DNA of 64,000 nt from an uncultured Coriobacteriaceae bacterium (GTDB lineage: Bacteria > Actinomycetota > Coriobacteriia > Coriobacteriales > Atopobiaceae), in contig CADAAU010000001.1 in NCBI GenBank assembly GCA_902786015.1, positions 62,001 through 126,000 on the forward strand, read 5' to 3'. Shown piece by piece: positions 13,839 to 49,917 of the stretch. Numbering within the stretch: position 1 is the first letter of the stretch; each line of letters starts with the position of its first letter. Both the position numbers and the translations under genes were made by a program. Under the pieces are notes generated by a model. The model did no database searches and was not told the DNA's origin. It worked only from the letters and a program-made list of their open reading frames with translations.

Positions 13839-15800
13839 CTACTCCTCAACCGGCTTCTTGAGGTAGGAGAGAAGAAGGGCGCCCACGACGGAGCCAGCGA
13901 TAAGGGCGACGAGCCACATGATGGGGTTGCCGATAACGGCGATAACCCATGCGCCACCGTGAGGCGCGGGGCTCGTGCAGCCAAAGAATGCGGAGAGGCC
14001 ACCGGCAATGGCGGAACCAATAACGCAGGTGGGGATTACGTGACCGGGGTCAGCGGCTGCGAACGGGATGGCGCCCTCAGAGATGAAGGACAGACCCATG
14101 ATGTAGTTCACCAGACCGGCGTCGCGGTCGGCCTTGCTCCACTTGTTCTTGAAGAACGTGGTGGAGAGGGCGATGACGATCGGGGGTACCATGCCGCCGA
14201 CCATGCAGGCGGCCATGACGATCTGAGCGTTCTGGGTAGTGGCGGCGTCAGCACCAGCGGCGCTGGCGAGAAGGCCGGTGGAGAAGACGTAAGCTGCCTT
14301 GTTGAAGGGGCCGCCGAAGTCGATGGACATCATGCCGCCGACGATGGCGCCGAGCAGAACGATGTTGGCACCCTGCATGCCGCCCAGGAAGTCGTTGATG
14401 GCGGTGTTGATCATGCCAAAGATCGGGTTGAGCACGAACATCACGGCGCCGATGGCGAGGATGCCCAGCAGCGGGTACAGGAGGATGGGTTTGATGCCCT
14501 CGAGGGACTCGGGCAGGTTGTCGCATGCCTTCTCGATGAAGAGGGTCATGTAGCCAGCGAGGAAGCCAGCGGCCAGAGCGGCGAGGAAGCCGCCGGAAAC
14601 GCAGACGCTGTCGTCAAATGCAGGAGCGGTGGCAAGGTAAGCAAGGCTGATGCCCGACTTTGCCATGAGGCCGCCCACGACGCCAGGAGCAAGACCAGGA
14701 CGGTCTGCGATGGACATGGCGATGTAGCCGGCGAGGATCGGGAGCATCATGTCGAATGCGACGCCACCGATTTGCTTAAAGAATGCAGCGATAGGGGTGG
14801 AGGAGCCATAGTCGCCCGTGCCTGCGGCGCCCATGTCCACCAGGAATGCGATGGCGATGAGGATGCCGCCGCCGATGACGAACGGGAGCATGTGAGAAAC
14901 GCCGTTCATGAGGTGCTTGTAGATCTGGGAGCCGACACCCTCGGTCTCGGCAGCGCCGCCACCGGATACGACCGTGCCCTCTTGTACGGGAGCCTCGTTG
15001 TTGAGGATGATGTTGATGAGCTTCTCGGGCTCATTGATGCCAGCGGATACGTTGGTGACGTATACTTGCTTGCCGGCGAAGCGTGCACGGTCGACGTTCT
15101 TGTCGGCGGCGATGATGATGCCCTTGCAGTTGGCGATCTCTTCGGCGGTAAGGACGTTCTTGGCGCCTGCGGAGCCTTGCGTCTCGGCCTTGAGAACGAG
15201 GCCCATCTCGGAGGCCTTCTTCTCGAGGTTCTCGGCTGCCATGTAGGTGTGGGCGATGCCGGTGGGGCAGGCGGTGATGGCCAGGATGTCGGGGCCGTTG
15301 CTGCCGGCTGCGGGAGCTGCCTTGGCGGCCTGCTCGGCGTTGCGCGCGGCCTCGGCGTCATCGATGACCTTGAGGAACTCCTGCGGCGTCTTTGCGGCGC
15401 GCAGGGCGTTGGCGAACTCCTCATGCATGAGCATGGCGGAGAGGTTGGCCAGAATCTCCAGGTGGGTGTTGGCTTCGCCCTCGGGGGCGGCGATCATGAA
15501 CATGAGGTCGGAGTTTTCTCCGTCGGGCGCCTTCCAGTCGACGCCGCCGGGAACCGTCATGGCGGCCAGGCCGGGCTTCTTTACAGCCGCGGTCTTTGCG
15601 TGGGGGATGGCGATGCCGTCGCCCACTGCAGTGGAGAACTCGGATTCGCGTTTAAGGATGGCCTCCTTGTACTTTGCCTTGTCGGCAATGTTGCCGCTTG
15701 CCACCTGAAGGGCGACAAGCTGGTCGATGGCGTCCATCTGGTCGGCCGCAGAAGCGCCCACCTTAATGCCATCAGCCTTGAGCAAGTCAGTGATCTTCAC
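13839..15800 (-). CDS. fruA: PTS fructose-specific EIIABC component
   Basis: A 653-residue fused permease that imports fructose and phosphorylates it to fructose-1-phosphate. The order is EIIA (1 to about 150; phospho-His67 in IPHAKT), an Ala-rich linker, EIIB (about 170-270; phospho-Cys178 in ACPTGIAHTYMAAE) and EIIC (about 305-650, eight or more membrane segments, GGGILIAIAF, FGGPFNKAA). Length and order match Gram-positive FruA. It is the last gene of fruR-fruK-fruA. It is preceded by a 33-base purine tract with several Shine-Dalgarno-like cores. Confidence 0.95.
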   Translation of the reverse strand: MKITDLLKADGIKVGASAADQMDAIDQLVALQVASGNIADKAKYKEAILKRESEFSTAVGDGIAIPHAKTAAVKKPGLAAMTVPGGVDWKAPDGENSDLMFMIAAPEGEANTHLEILANLSAMLMHEEFANALRAAKTPQEFLKVIDDAEAARNAEQAAKAAPAAGSNGPDILAITACPTGIAHTYMAAENLEKKASEMGLVLKAETQGSAGAKNVLTAEEIANCKGIIIAADKNVDRARFAGKQVYVTNVSAGINEPEKLINIILNNEAPVQEGTVVSGGGAAETEGVGSQIYKHLMNGVSHMLPFVIGGGILIAIAFLVDMGAAGTGDYGSSTPIAAFFKQIGGVAFDMMLPILAGYIAMSIADRPGLAPGVVGGLMAKSGISLAYLATAPAFDDSVCVSGGFLAALAAGFLAGYMTLFIEKACDNLPESLEGIKPILLYPLLGILAIGAVMFVLNPIFGMINTAINDFLGGMQGANIVLLGAIVGGMMSIDFGGPFNKAAYVFSTGLLASAAGADAATTQNAQIVMAACMVGGMVPPIVIALSTTFFKNKWSKADRDAGLVNYIMGLSFISEGAIPFAAADPGHVIPTCVIGSAIAGGLSAFFGCTSPAPHGGAWVIAVIGNPIMWLVALIAGSVVGALLLSYLKKPVEE

Positions 15801-15806
15801 GTGCTG

Positions 15807-15839
15807 CTCCTTTCCTTTCCTTCCTTTTCCTTACCTTCC
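15807..15839 (-). promoter_or_regulatory. Repeated Shine-Dalgarno-like purine tract before fruA
   Basis: On the mRNA strand this stretch reads as successive GGAAGG, AAGGAAAAGGA, AGGAAAGGAAAGGAG units, ending 6 bases or so before the fruA ATG. Only the last unit is needed for initiation. The others could act as a ribosome standby site. Confidence 0.6.
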
Positions 15840-15876
15840 TATGATCAGATCGGCAAGCCGATCATAGATCCCTTGC

Positions 15877-15905
15877 GAAGCAAAAGGGCGGCACCCTTTT
15901 GCTTC
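15877..15905 (-). promoter_or_regulatory. Intercistronic hairpin between fruK and fruA
   Basis: A 12-bp stem (15877-15888 with 15894-15905) and a 5-nt loop lie just after the fruK stop codon. An adjacent inverted repeat, CTATGATC/GATCATAG at 15839-15867, could form an alternative fold. They may set relative mRNA levels of the kinase and the permease. Confidence 0.55.
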
Positions 15906-15912
15906 CATGCTA

Positions 15913-16815
15913 CTACAGCGCGGCGAGCAGGGCCTCGACCTCGGGACGCGTGGCAAGGTCAGGCGAGAAAGCGCTTGCCGAACCAGTGCACAGTCCCATG
16001 CGGAATGCCTGAGCATAGTCGCCGGTCTCGATGATGCCGGCAACGAAGCCTGCGACCATGGAGTCGCCAGCGCCCACGGAGTTGACGAGCTTACCCTTGG
16101 GGGCTTCGCTCTTTACGACCTCGCCCTTCTCGCTCACAAAGACGGCGCCTTCGCCGGCCATGGAGATGAGCACGTTGCGCGCGCCCTGCTCTTGGAGCTT
16201 CTTGGCGTAGGGGACGACCTCGTCCTTGGTGGTGAGCTTGACACCAAAGATGTCGCCGAGCTCATGGTTGTTGGGCTTGATGACGAACGGGTGATACTTG
16301 AGTACGCGGGTGAGCAGGTCGCGCTCGGCGTCGACGGCGATGTTGATGCCGCGGCCGTCGAGACGGCTCATGATGCGCTCGTACATGTCGCCTGGCAGGA
16401 TGGAGGGCACGCTGCCGGCGATTACCAGATAGTCGCCTTCCTTGAGCTCGTCGAGCTTGGCATAGAGTGCGTCGATGTCTGCCTCGGTGATGTTGGGTCC
16501 GAGGCCGTTGATCTCGGACTCTTCGTTGGACTTAACCTTGACGTTGATGCGGCTCATGCCCTCGGCAACGTCAATGAAGTCGCAAGTCACGCCGTACTTC
16601 TGCATGCTGGCCTCGATCTCGCGGCCGGTGAAGCCGGCGGTGAAGCCCAGCGCGGTGTTGTCGTGACCCAAGTTCTTGAGGACGATGGACACGTTGATGC
16701 CCTTGCCTCCGGGGAGGATGTTTTCGTAGTTTACGCGGTTGACCTGCCCCAGCTTGAGGTTTTCGACCCTGATGATGTAATCCAGGGACGGGTTGAACGT
16801 TACGGTGTAGATCAT
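15913..16815 (-). CDS. fruK: 1-phosphofructokinase
   Basis: A 300-residue PfkB-family sugar kinase that converts fructose-1-phosphate to fructose-1,6-bisphosphate. The N-terminal signature GGKGINVSIVLKNLG and the C-terminal VNSVGAGDSMVAGF (catalytic Asp and anion hole) are intact. Its start overlaps the fruR stop by four bases (ATGA), so translation is probably coupled. The placement between a DeoR-type regulator and the fructose EII fixes the substrate as fructose-1-phosphate rather than tagatose-6-phosphate. Confidence 0.95.
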   Translation of the reverse strand: MIYTVTFNPSLDYIIRVENLKLGQVNRVNYENILPGGKGINVSIVLKNLGHDNTALGFTAGFTGREIEASMQKYGVTCDFIDVAEGMSRINVKVKSNEESEINGLGPNITEADIDALYAKLDELKEGDYLVIAGSVPSILPGDMYERIMSRLDGRGINIAVDAERDLLTRVLKYHPFVIKPNNHELGDIFGVKLTTKDEVVPYAKKLQEQGARNVLISMAGEGAVFVSEKGEVVKSEAPKGKLVNSVGAGDSMVAGFVAGIIETGDYAQAFRMGLCTGSASAFSPDLATRPEVEALLAAL

Positions 16816-46661: not shown

Positions 46662-46846
46662 GGTGCTGTGACCTGTTGCTACTTCTTGGCCTTGCCCTGG
46701 TTGGCGACGGCGTCGATCTTGTGAAAGGAACACTCCCGCCCCTTACGGTGCGGGAGTGCGCCGCCAAGATCGGCTCCCGGCGGAAAGGGTGCTGTGACCT
46801 GTTGCTACTTCTTGGCCTTGCCCTGGTTGGCGACGGCGTCGATCTT
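46662..46846 (-). repeat. 59-bp direct repeat duplicating the 3' end of gpmA
   Basis: 46662-46720 and 46788-46846 are identical. The second copy contains the last codons and stop of gpmA; the first is an orphan copy in the 3' region. The 67 bases between hold a hairpin with 9-bp stem (46731-46758) and a second short one. Together with 46521-46656 this fills the 336-base gap between the two genes. Confidence 0.85.
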
Positions 46847-47569
46847 TGCGGCGATGACGTCGGGGTCGCCAATGTACTTCTTCTCGACGACGTTCCAGTC
46901 CTGGTCGAAGGTGTAGGCCAGAGGCACTGCGGTGGGGATGTTGACCTCGAGGATCTCTTCGGGGGTGAGCTTGTCGAACATCATCACGAGGGAGCGCAGG
47001 CTGTTGCCGTGAGCGGCGATGAGGACGCGCTTGCCAGCCTTGAGCTGCGGGGCGATCTCGTCCTGGAAGTACGGCCATGCGCGGGCGATGCAGTCCTTCA
47101 GGCACTCGGTGTAGGGGAGACGCTCGGGCATGGGCTCTTCGCGGTAGTTCTCTGCCTTCTGGGCGCAGCGGTCGTCATCGGGGTCGAGGGCCTTGGCGGG
47201 GATGTCGAACGAACGACGCCAGATCTTTACCTGCTCGTCACCATACTTGGCGGCGGTCTCGGCCTTGTTCATGCCCTGCAGCGCGCCATAGTGACGCTCG
47301 TTGAGCTTCCAGCTCTTGTACACGGGCAGCCACTCGCGGTCCATGGCAAAGAGGACGTTGTTGAGGGTGTGGATGGCGCGCTTGAGGAGGGAGGTGTAGC
47401 ACACGTCAAAGTCGAAGCCGGCGTCCTTAAGAGCCTTACCGCCGTCGAGAGCCTCCTGGACTCCTGCCTCAGAAAGGTCTACGTCGGTCCAACCGGTGAA
47501 CAGGTTGGCCTTGTTCCACTCGGACTCGCCGTGGCGGATAAGAACGAGATGCATGAGGTTGTCGGCCAT
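46805..47569 (-). CDS. gpmA: 2,3-bisphosphoglycerate-dependent phosphoglycerate mutase
   Basis: A 254-residue glycolytic enzyme interconverting 3- and 2-phosphoglycerate. The catalytic His is in [24 protein letters not shown], the acid/base region and [11 protein letters not shown] complete the dPGM signature. The C-terminal Lys-rich tail (NQGKAKK) is encoded within the duplicated segment. The start at 47569 follows AAAGGA; the longer frame enters the upstream spacer. It is monocistronic. Confidence 0.95.
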
Positions 47570-47703: not shown

Positions 47704-49917
47704 TTACCACTTACGATGGGGGCGTGGGTTCGTGAGCTTTTCTATGCAGAGTGCCAGTTCGCCCAGACAGATGAACTCTCGCGGGTCTTCAACCCACTTA
47801 AGGTCGGGGACGTAGGCCATGGGGATGGTGCGCCAGAGCCATTCACGTAACTCGTCCATGTTGCGTACGAGTGGCGTCGACACATACACCACGTCGGGGG
47901 AGACCGTGCAGATGCTCGCGGTAAGGTAGTTTGCCACGATCTCGGTCATGCCCTCGTACGTCCAAGGCATCTCCATGGGGTCGCCCGAAAGGCCCGTGAG
48001 CCAAAGCACCGGCTCCATCTCGCCCGCATAGTTCAGCCGCCCCTTTACCAGGTGCCCGTCAGCCACGATGCCTTCGCTGCACGGCAGCATGCCCGTGCGC
48101 TGGATGTGGAACACGACGGAGTCGTATGTGTCCTGGCTCATGTAGCAGCCCATGGCAGCGGCATTGGCGTCGTTGTCCACATAGACCTCGACCCCATAGC
48201 GCTTTTTTAGCTTACGCCCCAAGTCGTAGTCGCGGAGGTCGGTGGCGGGCATCGACACGGATTCGCGATTGATGATGCCGGGCATGGCGATGCCTACGGC
48301 GTCGAGCTCGCGCACGTTGATGCCGTCGACCTTGACGGTTGCGAGCACGTCCTCGATGTCGCGGAAGTTCACGTGCTTCTTGTATACCATTCCGTCGAGT
48401 GCGACACCCTTGCTTGCAAACACGCGATATGCGATGGCCGAGGTATCCTCGCGGTGTGTGACAGAGACCACCATAACGTCTTTGCTGTCGTCGATGGGCC
48501 GTACCACCTTAGCGTCGCGTCCGCACGTGTTGTGCTCCACGCCCTCGCCCATGGCGTCCAGAAGCAGGTGCAGCGTTGCATCGACGTCGAAGCGGGCAAA
48601 GATCTCACCGGGAATCTCGATGACCATGGCGTTAGGGTAGGCGGCCTGGGCATCCGCACGCCTGTATCCAAGCTGGGGGGTGACCATTACAACGTCGTAG
48701 CTATTTTTGAGCGAGATCGCAACGTCGAGCGGCATGGCCGAAAACTCGTAATGCAAAGATAGGCTCTCGGCAAGGGCGTTGAGCTTTTGCTCGTACAGGG
48801 TGGTGGTAACGCCGGCATTGCAGCAGAGCAGGATTCGGGTGACGCCGCGCGTGTCGGTACGTTCGAGTGCCTCGGTCATCTCGAGGAATAGCTCTTGGGC
48901 TCGGAGCTCGTCATTGAGCTCGAAGCGCACCCTAAACATGGGCTGTCCGTCGTTTTTGCGAACGATCTTCATCTCCACAATCTCGGGGCCATCGGATCTT
49001 GGGAAGAACGTGATCTTGCCAAACATCGACGCGGTTGCGAGACTAATGTTCTCGTTGTCCGTCCAGCTGATGGCGCATCCCAGGATGCGTCGTGAGAGTA
49101 CCCATTCGCGATATCTCTTGCCGGCTCCTTTGACGCCTATCCAGGACTCTTGGCAGTATGGCATGTGGCGGTGTACCCGTCCGTCGGGCAGGCCACCCAG
49201 CTCGACGATTTGGCCATACAAAACACAGTGTCTCTTGTCGCGCAGCATGATGTCGTCGTGGTAATGGCCGGCATACCACATCTTTAGGCGATTGCGGTCC
49301 AGCCGATCCTCCACGGTCTGCAGGTACGCCGAGAGCTCGTCGTCTTGCTCGCGGCTCTTGTCGAAATGGCGTGCCATGGCAAATCGGCGAAGGCTGCGGG
49401 GTACCTCGTGCGTAAAGACATAGTCAACTTCGTAGTTCACGCGTTCGAGGTTCTTGCGACCTTCGTCGTATTCTTGCTGGCTCGGCATCTCGCGCGGCCA
49501 CCACGACTTGCCGGCCACGCGGCTGGCCGTGTCGTGCGATGGGGCGCCGCCCATGCAGAACCAACGTCCGTACCTGCCCATCTCGTAAATCTGACCACGC
49601 AGGAGGTGAATGACGTTTCTTGTGCCGGGAAGTACCGCCACCTTGCCGCCACGCCAGTCGGAGGTCTCGAACGTGTCCAGAAGGTCGTAGTTCTCGTGGT
49701 TGCCGTCAATAAAGAGCGTTGTCCACGGACGGCTGTCGAGCCAGTCGATGAAGAACTTCTCCTCGAGCGTGATGGGGTTGTTCCACACCAATCCAAAGTC
49801 GCCGCAAATCACGAGGAAGTCGCTTCGCCGAAGCTTGGTGCCGGCCGGCCAGCGGTTTGGTGTGAGTTTTCCGATGTCGAGCCAACCGTGGATATCGCCG
49901 GTGACGAAGACCGCCAT
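47704..49917 (-). CDS. Fusion of metallophosphoesterase, PTS EIIB-like and ROK-like domains
   Basis: A 737-residue cytoplasmic protein with three joined domains. Residues 1 to about 225 form a calcineurin-like metallophosphoesterase: GDIHG (7-11), GDFG (39-42), GNHE (72-75), His170 and GHYH (217-220). A linker leads to an EIIB lactose/cellobiose-type domain (about 357-455) with [12 protein letters not shown], Cys366 being the likely phospho-site. A ROK/sugar-kinase-fold domain follows (about 480-720): AMPG (544-547), [10 protein letters not shown] (581-590) and [14 protein letters not shown]. The usual ROK zinc cysteines and N-terminal DxGGT loop are not evident, so it may sense rather than phosphorylate sugar. 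PTS-linked control of a phosphoesterase is a hypothesis. The ATG at 49917 follows GGGGAGGA. Confidence 0.8.

Follow-up and report, generated by a model that had tools for sequence, protein, structure and literature searches.

A conserved fusion of a metallophosphoesterase with PTS EIIB and ROK pseudokinase domains in rumen and gut Atopobiaceae

We describe a protein of 737 amino acids in which a calcineurin-type metallophosphoesterase (MPE), a PTS EIIB domain and a ROK domain are joined in one chain. Its gene lies on the minus strand of the window (the whole stretch of 64,000 nucleotides that was analysed) at 47704..49917, with the ATG at 49917 and the stop at 47704. The fusion is real and conserved, and so far it is known from a few rumen and gut Atopobiaceae alone. 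What could such a protein do? The reading that we favour, and to which we give slightly less than an even chance, is that a sugar-sensing pseudokinase phosphorylated by the PTS gates a phosphoesterase; the phosphorylation, the sugar binding and the coupling between domains are what we infer here. The original prediction knew of no described protein with this combination, and a literature search among open-licence papers found none. The combination and the EIIB-ROK family discussed below are new to us; the component domains are already known.

Conservation of the fusion gene

Three domains in a single uninterrupted frame had been read from the sequence of the window. This reading stands: the frame is open over 737 amino acids, Metallophos, PTS_IIB and ROK all score above the curated Pfam cut-offs, and the homologues are built alike. 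Might two or three genes instead have been fused by a frameshift or a misassembly? We give this explanation practically no chance. The same domain order was looked for in other genomes and was found in 24 further distinct homologues, full-length and at 65-83% identity, each with an uninterrupted frame; independently assembled rumen and gut MAGs yield further fusion loci. An artefact is refuted by this recurrence of one frame in independent assemblies, and the objection of a missed frameshift fails with it. No evidence in favour of a frameshift or misassembly was found. Purifying selection along the entire fusion protein also argues against an artefact. All four domains are under such selection, with a median dN/dS of 0.125 in the MPE, 0.229 in a domain of residues 262-355 described below, 0.201 in EIIB and 0.174 in ROK. 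With the window protein counted in, the set of fusions for comparison holds 25 distinct sequences.

The phosphoesterase domain

The MPE occupies residues 1 to about 245 (49183..49917, minus strand). It matches Pfam PF00149 (Metallophos) at residues 1-221 (E 2.7e-5, 25.1 bits against a cut-off of 21.5) and PHROG 1649 (E 7e-33). The metal ligands D8, H10, D40, N73, H74, H170, H218 and H220 are present in 25/25 fusion proteins, all of which pass the ligand pattern D-x-H / GD / GNH / H / GHxH. Judged by Pfam, PHROG and ligand conservation, the domain is a predicted two-metal phosphoesterase. The calcineurin-like phosphoesterases of PHROG 1649, which occur in gut phages and bacteria, are 33-51% identical to it and conserve the metal ligands. 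Most of them stand alone, with a length of about 230-250 amino acids, whereas here the MPE heads a fusion. A sequence search gave no solved structure related to the MPE, and the domain was absent among the best 50 fold matches of the model in Foldseek. Note that the full-length AlphaFold2 (AF2) model has a mean pLDDT of 77 and a pTM of 0.51, so that the placement of domains in it is unreliable. Argonaute matches in the full-length fold search were discarded, with an rmsd of 12-26 A.

Among the phage neighbours of the stand-alone MPEs, no common neighbour pointing to a substrate was found. Same-family stand-alone phosphoesterases also occur in the plasmid-like records H11-H13 of Collinsella aerofaciens, two per record. 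Residues 28-76 of the MPE (49690-49836, minus strand) gave a weak PADLOC match to the candidate defence family PDC-S10 (E 7e-5), over this short part only.

The EIIB domain and Cys366

The central domain (residues 359-455; 48553..48843, minus strand) is a PTS EIIB domain of the Lac/cellobiose/chitobiose type. It is matched by Pfam PF02302 (PTS_IIB) at 361-428 (E 4e-6, 27.8 bits against a cut-off of 23.6), by NCBIfam pts-lac (2.6e-9) and, by sequence, by the PDB entries 1h9c and 2wy2. Does the middle region also look like EIIB in a structure model? In Foldseek the modelled domain matches the chitobiose IIB 2wy2_D with a TM (target) of 0.81 and an rmsd of 2.2 A over 99 columns, which counters the objection that it is something else. 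The fold and the phospho-cysteine loop are common to ChbB/CelA, the Lac/chitobiose EIIB proteins. ChbB/CelA are stand-alone transport components, while the present EIIB is the central domain of a larger protein without EIIC; comparison of the loci gave no conserved EIIC neighbour either.

Cys366 (codon 48820..48822, minus strand) aligns with the IIB cysteine of 1h9c and is the predicted phosphoacceptor. Its naming as the likely phospho-cysteine is now backed by sequence, structure models and conservation. Cys366 and Thr371 are invariant in 75/75 sequences, comprising the 25 fusions and 50 paralogues. One might ask whether Cys365-Cys366 is a redox switch instead of a phosphorylation site, and the vicinal cysteines, kept in 25/25 members of the fusion clade, would suit such a role. 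Of the two, however, only Cys366, which aligns with the phospho-cysteine of EIIB, is kept throughout the family, and in 9/50 paralogues S, V or T stands in place of Cys365. We consider the redox switch improbable.

Ahead of the EIIB domain lies a fourth domain, overlooked in the original prediction. It is an alpha/beta domain of about 95 amino acids (residues 262-355; 48853..49134, minus strand), recognised from paralogue alignments and from the AF2 model, in which it forms a helix, five strands and a helix. According to the alignments, every EIIB-ROK paralogue has it. It has no counterpart in Pfam; the strongest match, under the curated cut-off, linked one paralogue with the TriTu immunity family (E 0.0035).

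The ROK domain

The C-terminal ROK pseudokinase domain spans residues about 475-737 (47707..48495, minus strand). Pfam PF00480 matches at 535-634 (E 3e-13, 50.4 bits against a cut-off of 22.9), covering profile positions 54-155 of 294, and NCBIfam and a PDB sequence search give the same assignment. The fold matches of the ROK model in Foldseek include NagK, ManNAc kinases, Mlc and the Mlc/EIIB complex 3bp8. A model of the EIIB-ROK part has a pLDDT of 81 and a pTM of 0.79, with low-confidence loops around the ROK pocket.

Is this domain still a kinase? The lack of the ATP loop and zinc cysteines, first remarked in the window protein, turned out to be family-wide: the N-terminal ATP/phosphate loop DxGxT and the CxCGxxGC part of the zinc motif CxCGxxGCxE are each found in 0/75 sequences. 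The catalytic Asp (Asp583) is present in the window protein and is kept in 23/75 sequences overall, in 16/25 fusions and 7/50 paralogues. The sugar-site residues are Asn582, kept in 73/75, and Glu633 of the AGE motif, kept in 68/75. Since these two are conserved although the catalytic Asp is not, a retained ligand site is suggested, and the residue pattern is that of a pseudokinase in which sugar binding may persist. The N-terminal helix-turn-helix DNA-binding domain of ROK repressors (Mlc/NagC type) was sought in the window protein and in the scanned paralogues, where no HTH family scored above its cut-off.

Another explanation is a soluble PEP-dependent sugar kinase, in which phospho-Cys366 would take the place of ATP as the direct phosphate donor for a sugar bound in the ROK fold, while the MPE would take the phosphate off sugar phosphates, making a two-way enzyme. 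The ATP loop is gone, yet the phospho-cysteine and parts of the sugar site are retained, as this explanation would have it. But 52/75 sequences, 9/25 fusions among them, have lost the catalytic Asp, and EIIB normally passes phosphate to sugar only via membrane EIIC. We hold the sugar kinase to be very improbable. The tail PRPHRK[WH] (47707-47730, minus strand) is conserved at the C-terminus of the fusions and of most of the nearest paralogue group.

The EIIB-ROK family and the origin of the fusion

Where did the fusion come from? Residues 262-737 match two further proteins of the same genome, both without MPE, and this part of the protein represents a family, EIIB-ROK, that is itself undescribed and of which a genome has several copies. 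A profile of the family was built from 16 proteins; as only four candidates were scored in each genome, the figure of two to four copies for each genome is a lower bound. Of 400 sampled genomes of the class, 29 have near-full-length members, and these genomes all belong to four genera of a single family. Among 397 genomes drawn across the phylum there was no full-length EIIB-ROK beyond these four genera, and outside the source genome this draw gave single EIIB or ROK domains only. The fusion is present in 19 of the 400 genomes of the class, the source genome counted; it was found in 12/12 sampled genomes of one genus and in 7/11 of the window's genus. On a tree of 72 EIIB-ROK sequences, the MPE fusions form one clade with support 100/100. 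Thus the fusion most simply arose once, by the joining of an MPE to EIIB-ROK in one clade.

The long N-terminal extensions of some paralogues (L179, L180, L181) were considered as other fused domains and rejected, as they are mutually unlike and were taken, on visual inspection, for upstream read-through. At one locus (L035:4977-8884) an EIIB-ROK paralogue without MPE follows directly after the fusion gene on the same strand, 41% identical over residues 262-737. In several close relatives (L176, L177, L033, L038 and L051) there is also an EIIB-ROK paralogue at most about 4-8 kb from the fusion gene.

A possible PTS-gated phosphoesterase

How might the domains work together? The fusion protein would be a cytoplasmic, PTS-gated phosphoesterase. 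Phosphate would pass from PEP to EI, HPr, a Lac-type EIIA and then Cys366 of the EIIB domain, which would report PTS flux, being phosphorylated if PTS sugars are scarce and unphosphorylated during flow. The ROK domain, having lost its ATP machinery, would act as a sugar-binding or conformational sensor, like ROK repressors, and together with the 262-355 domain it would form a switch by which the two-metal phosphoesterase at the N-terminus changes its activity. As to the relay, the source genome has HPr, two PEP-utiliser C-terminal domains, one of whose proteins is probably EI, and a cluster of Lac-type EIIB, EIIC and EIIA at C3:81990-84159. The EIIB of this cluster and that of the fusion are 30% identical over 63 amino acids. 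Going by their gene content, the EI, HPr and Lac-type EIIA/EIIB/EIIC of the genome could phosphorylate Cys366. That PTS phosphorylation and sugar binding could control the phosphoesterase, as first proposed, is consistent with all findings, the complete Lac-type chain included. Counter to gating, paralogues occur without MPE, and MPEs of the same family mostly occur outside fusions. A broader scenario, which we hold tentatively and doubt somewhat more than we believe, is that EIIB and a sugar-sensing ROK pseudokinase make up lineage-specific soluble PTS receivers, which in the MPE clade directly switch a phosphoesterase.

One rival to gating is a PTS-driven adaptor. Here EIIB-ROK would be phosphorylated or compete for EIIA, and would oligomerise or bind partners; the MPE would be carried to its substrate ungated, with no sugar in ROK. 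EIIB-like domains are known in regulators, where they have roles in dimerisation and interaction (PMC8560693), and the adaptor is further favoured by the analogy with MtlR/Mga-type EIIB-like domains and the Mlc-EIIB pair, by the fold match to 3bp8 and by the many EIIB-ROK paralogues without any enzyme. Against it, Glu633 and Asn582 are kept despite the loss of the catalytic Asp, suggesting a ligand site. We regard the adaptor as unlikely, if less so than the other rivals.

The gated phosphoesterase has partial likenesses among known systems. In E. coli, Mlc is a kinase-less ROK protein that depends on the PTS state through contact with the EIIB of PtsG (3bp8), and the glucose PTS IICB controls Mlc (PMC10305011). 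Mlc has a DNA-binding domain and a separate, membrane Glc-type EIIB, whereas the fusion has a Lac-type EIIB in the same chain, no DNA-binding domain and an enzyme as the attached output. The PRD regulators (MtlR, Mga/AtxA) are likewise soluble and carry an EIIB-like domain with a cysteine; unlike the fusion, they contain DNA-binding and PRD domains, and their output is transcription. We know of no PRD regulator with a ROK or phosphoesterase domain. To our knowledge, PTS signalling acts for the most part on transporters, transcription regulators and adenylate cyclase, and on a few enzymes that are bound in trans. If the gating scenario is true, the PTS would control a hydrolytic enzyme by phosphorylation of a domain in the same chain, with no need of transcription or of a cyclase, and a receiver made of EIIB and a ROK pseudokinase, duplicated within genomes and once fused, would be a new readout of sugar flux. 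The fusion would also open a direct route to the substrate of the PHROG 1649 phosphoesterases, a widespread and uncharacterised family.

Genomic context

Across the fusion loci no operon is conserved that would link the gene with a particular PTS or sugar, which speaks against the gated reading. In its favour, sugar or PTS genes precede the fusion gene, though at a minority of loci only. The gene directly upstream is a GH1 glycosidase in L047 and L052 and MupG in L048; a MupG that clusters with the L048 gene precedes the fusion in L049, and, by sequence, a GH1 in L035 and the end of a PTS EIIC in L034. Note that L047 and L052 are closely related, so the independent cases are few. In the window, the downstream neighbour is a phosphoglycerate mutase-like gene (46805..47569, minus strand), named from its sequence and about 135 bp from the fusion gene; no terminator-like site was found on the minus strand between the two. 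We treat it as a neighbour rather than as a component of the system.

On one MAG contig (CADBRX010000087.1) the fusion gene occurs twice, in inverted orientation (L039 and L042), with equal identity to the window in both copies, and this pair may be a palindromic assembly error. Elsewhere in the window, a fructose-type PTS EIIABC (13839-15800, minus strand), named from sequence, lies beside a 1-phosphofructokinase-like gene, the two spanning 13839-16815 on the same strand.
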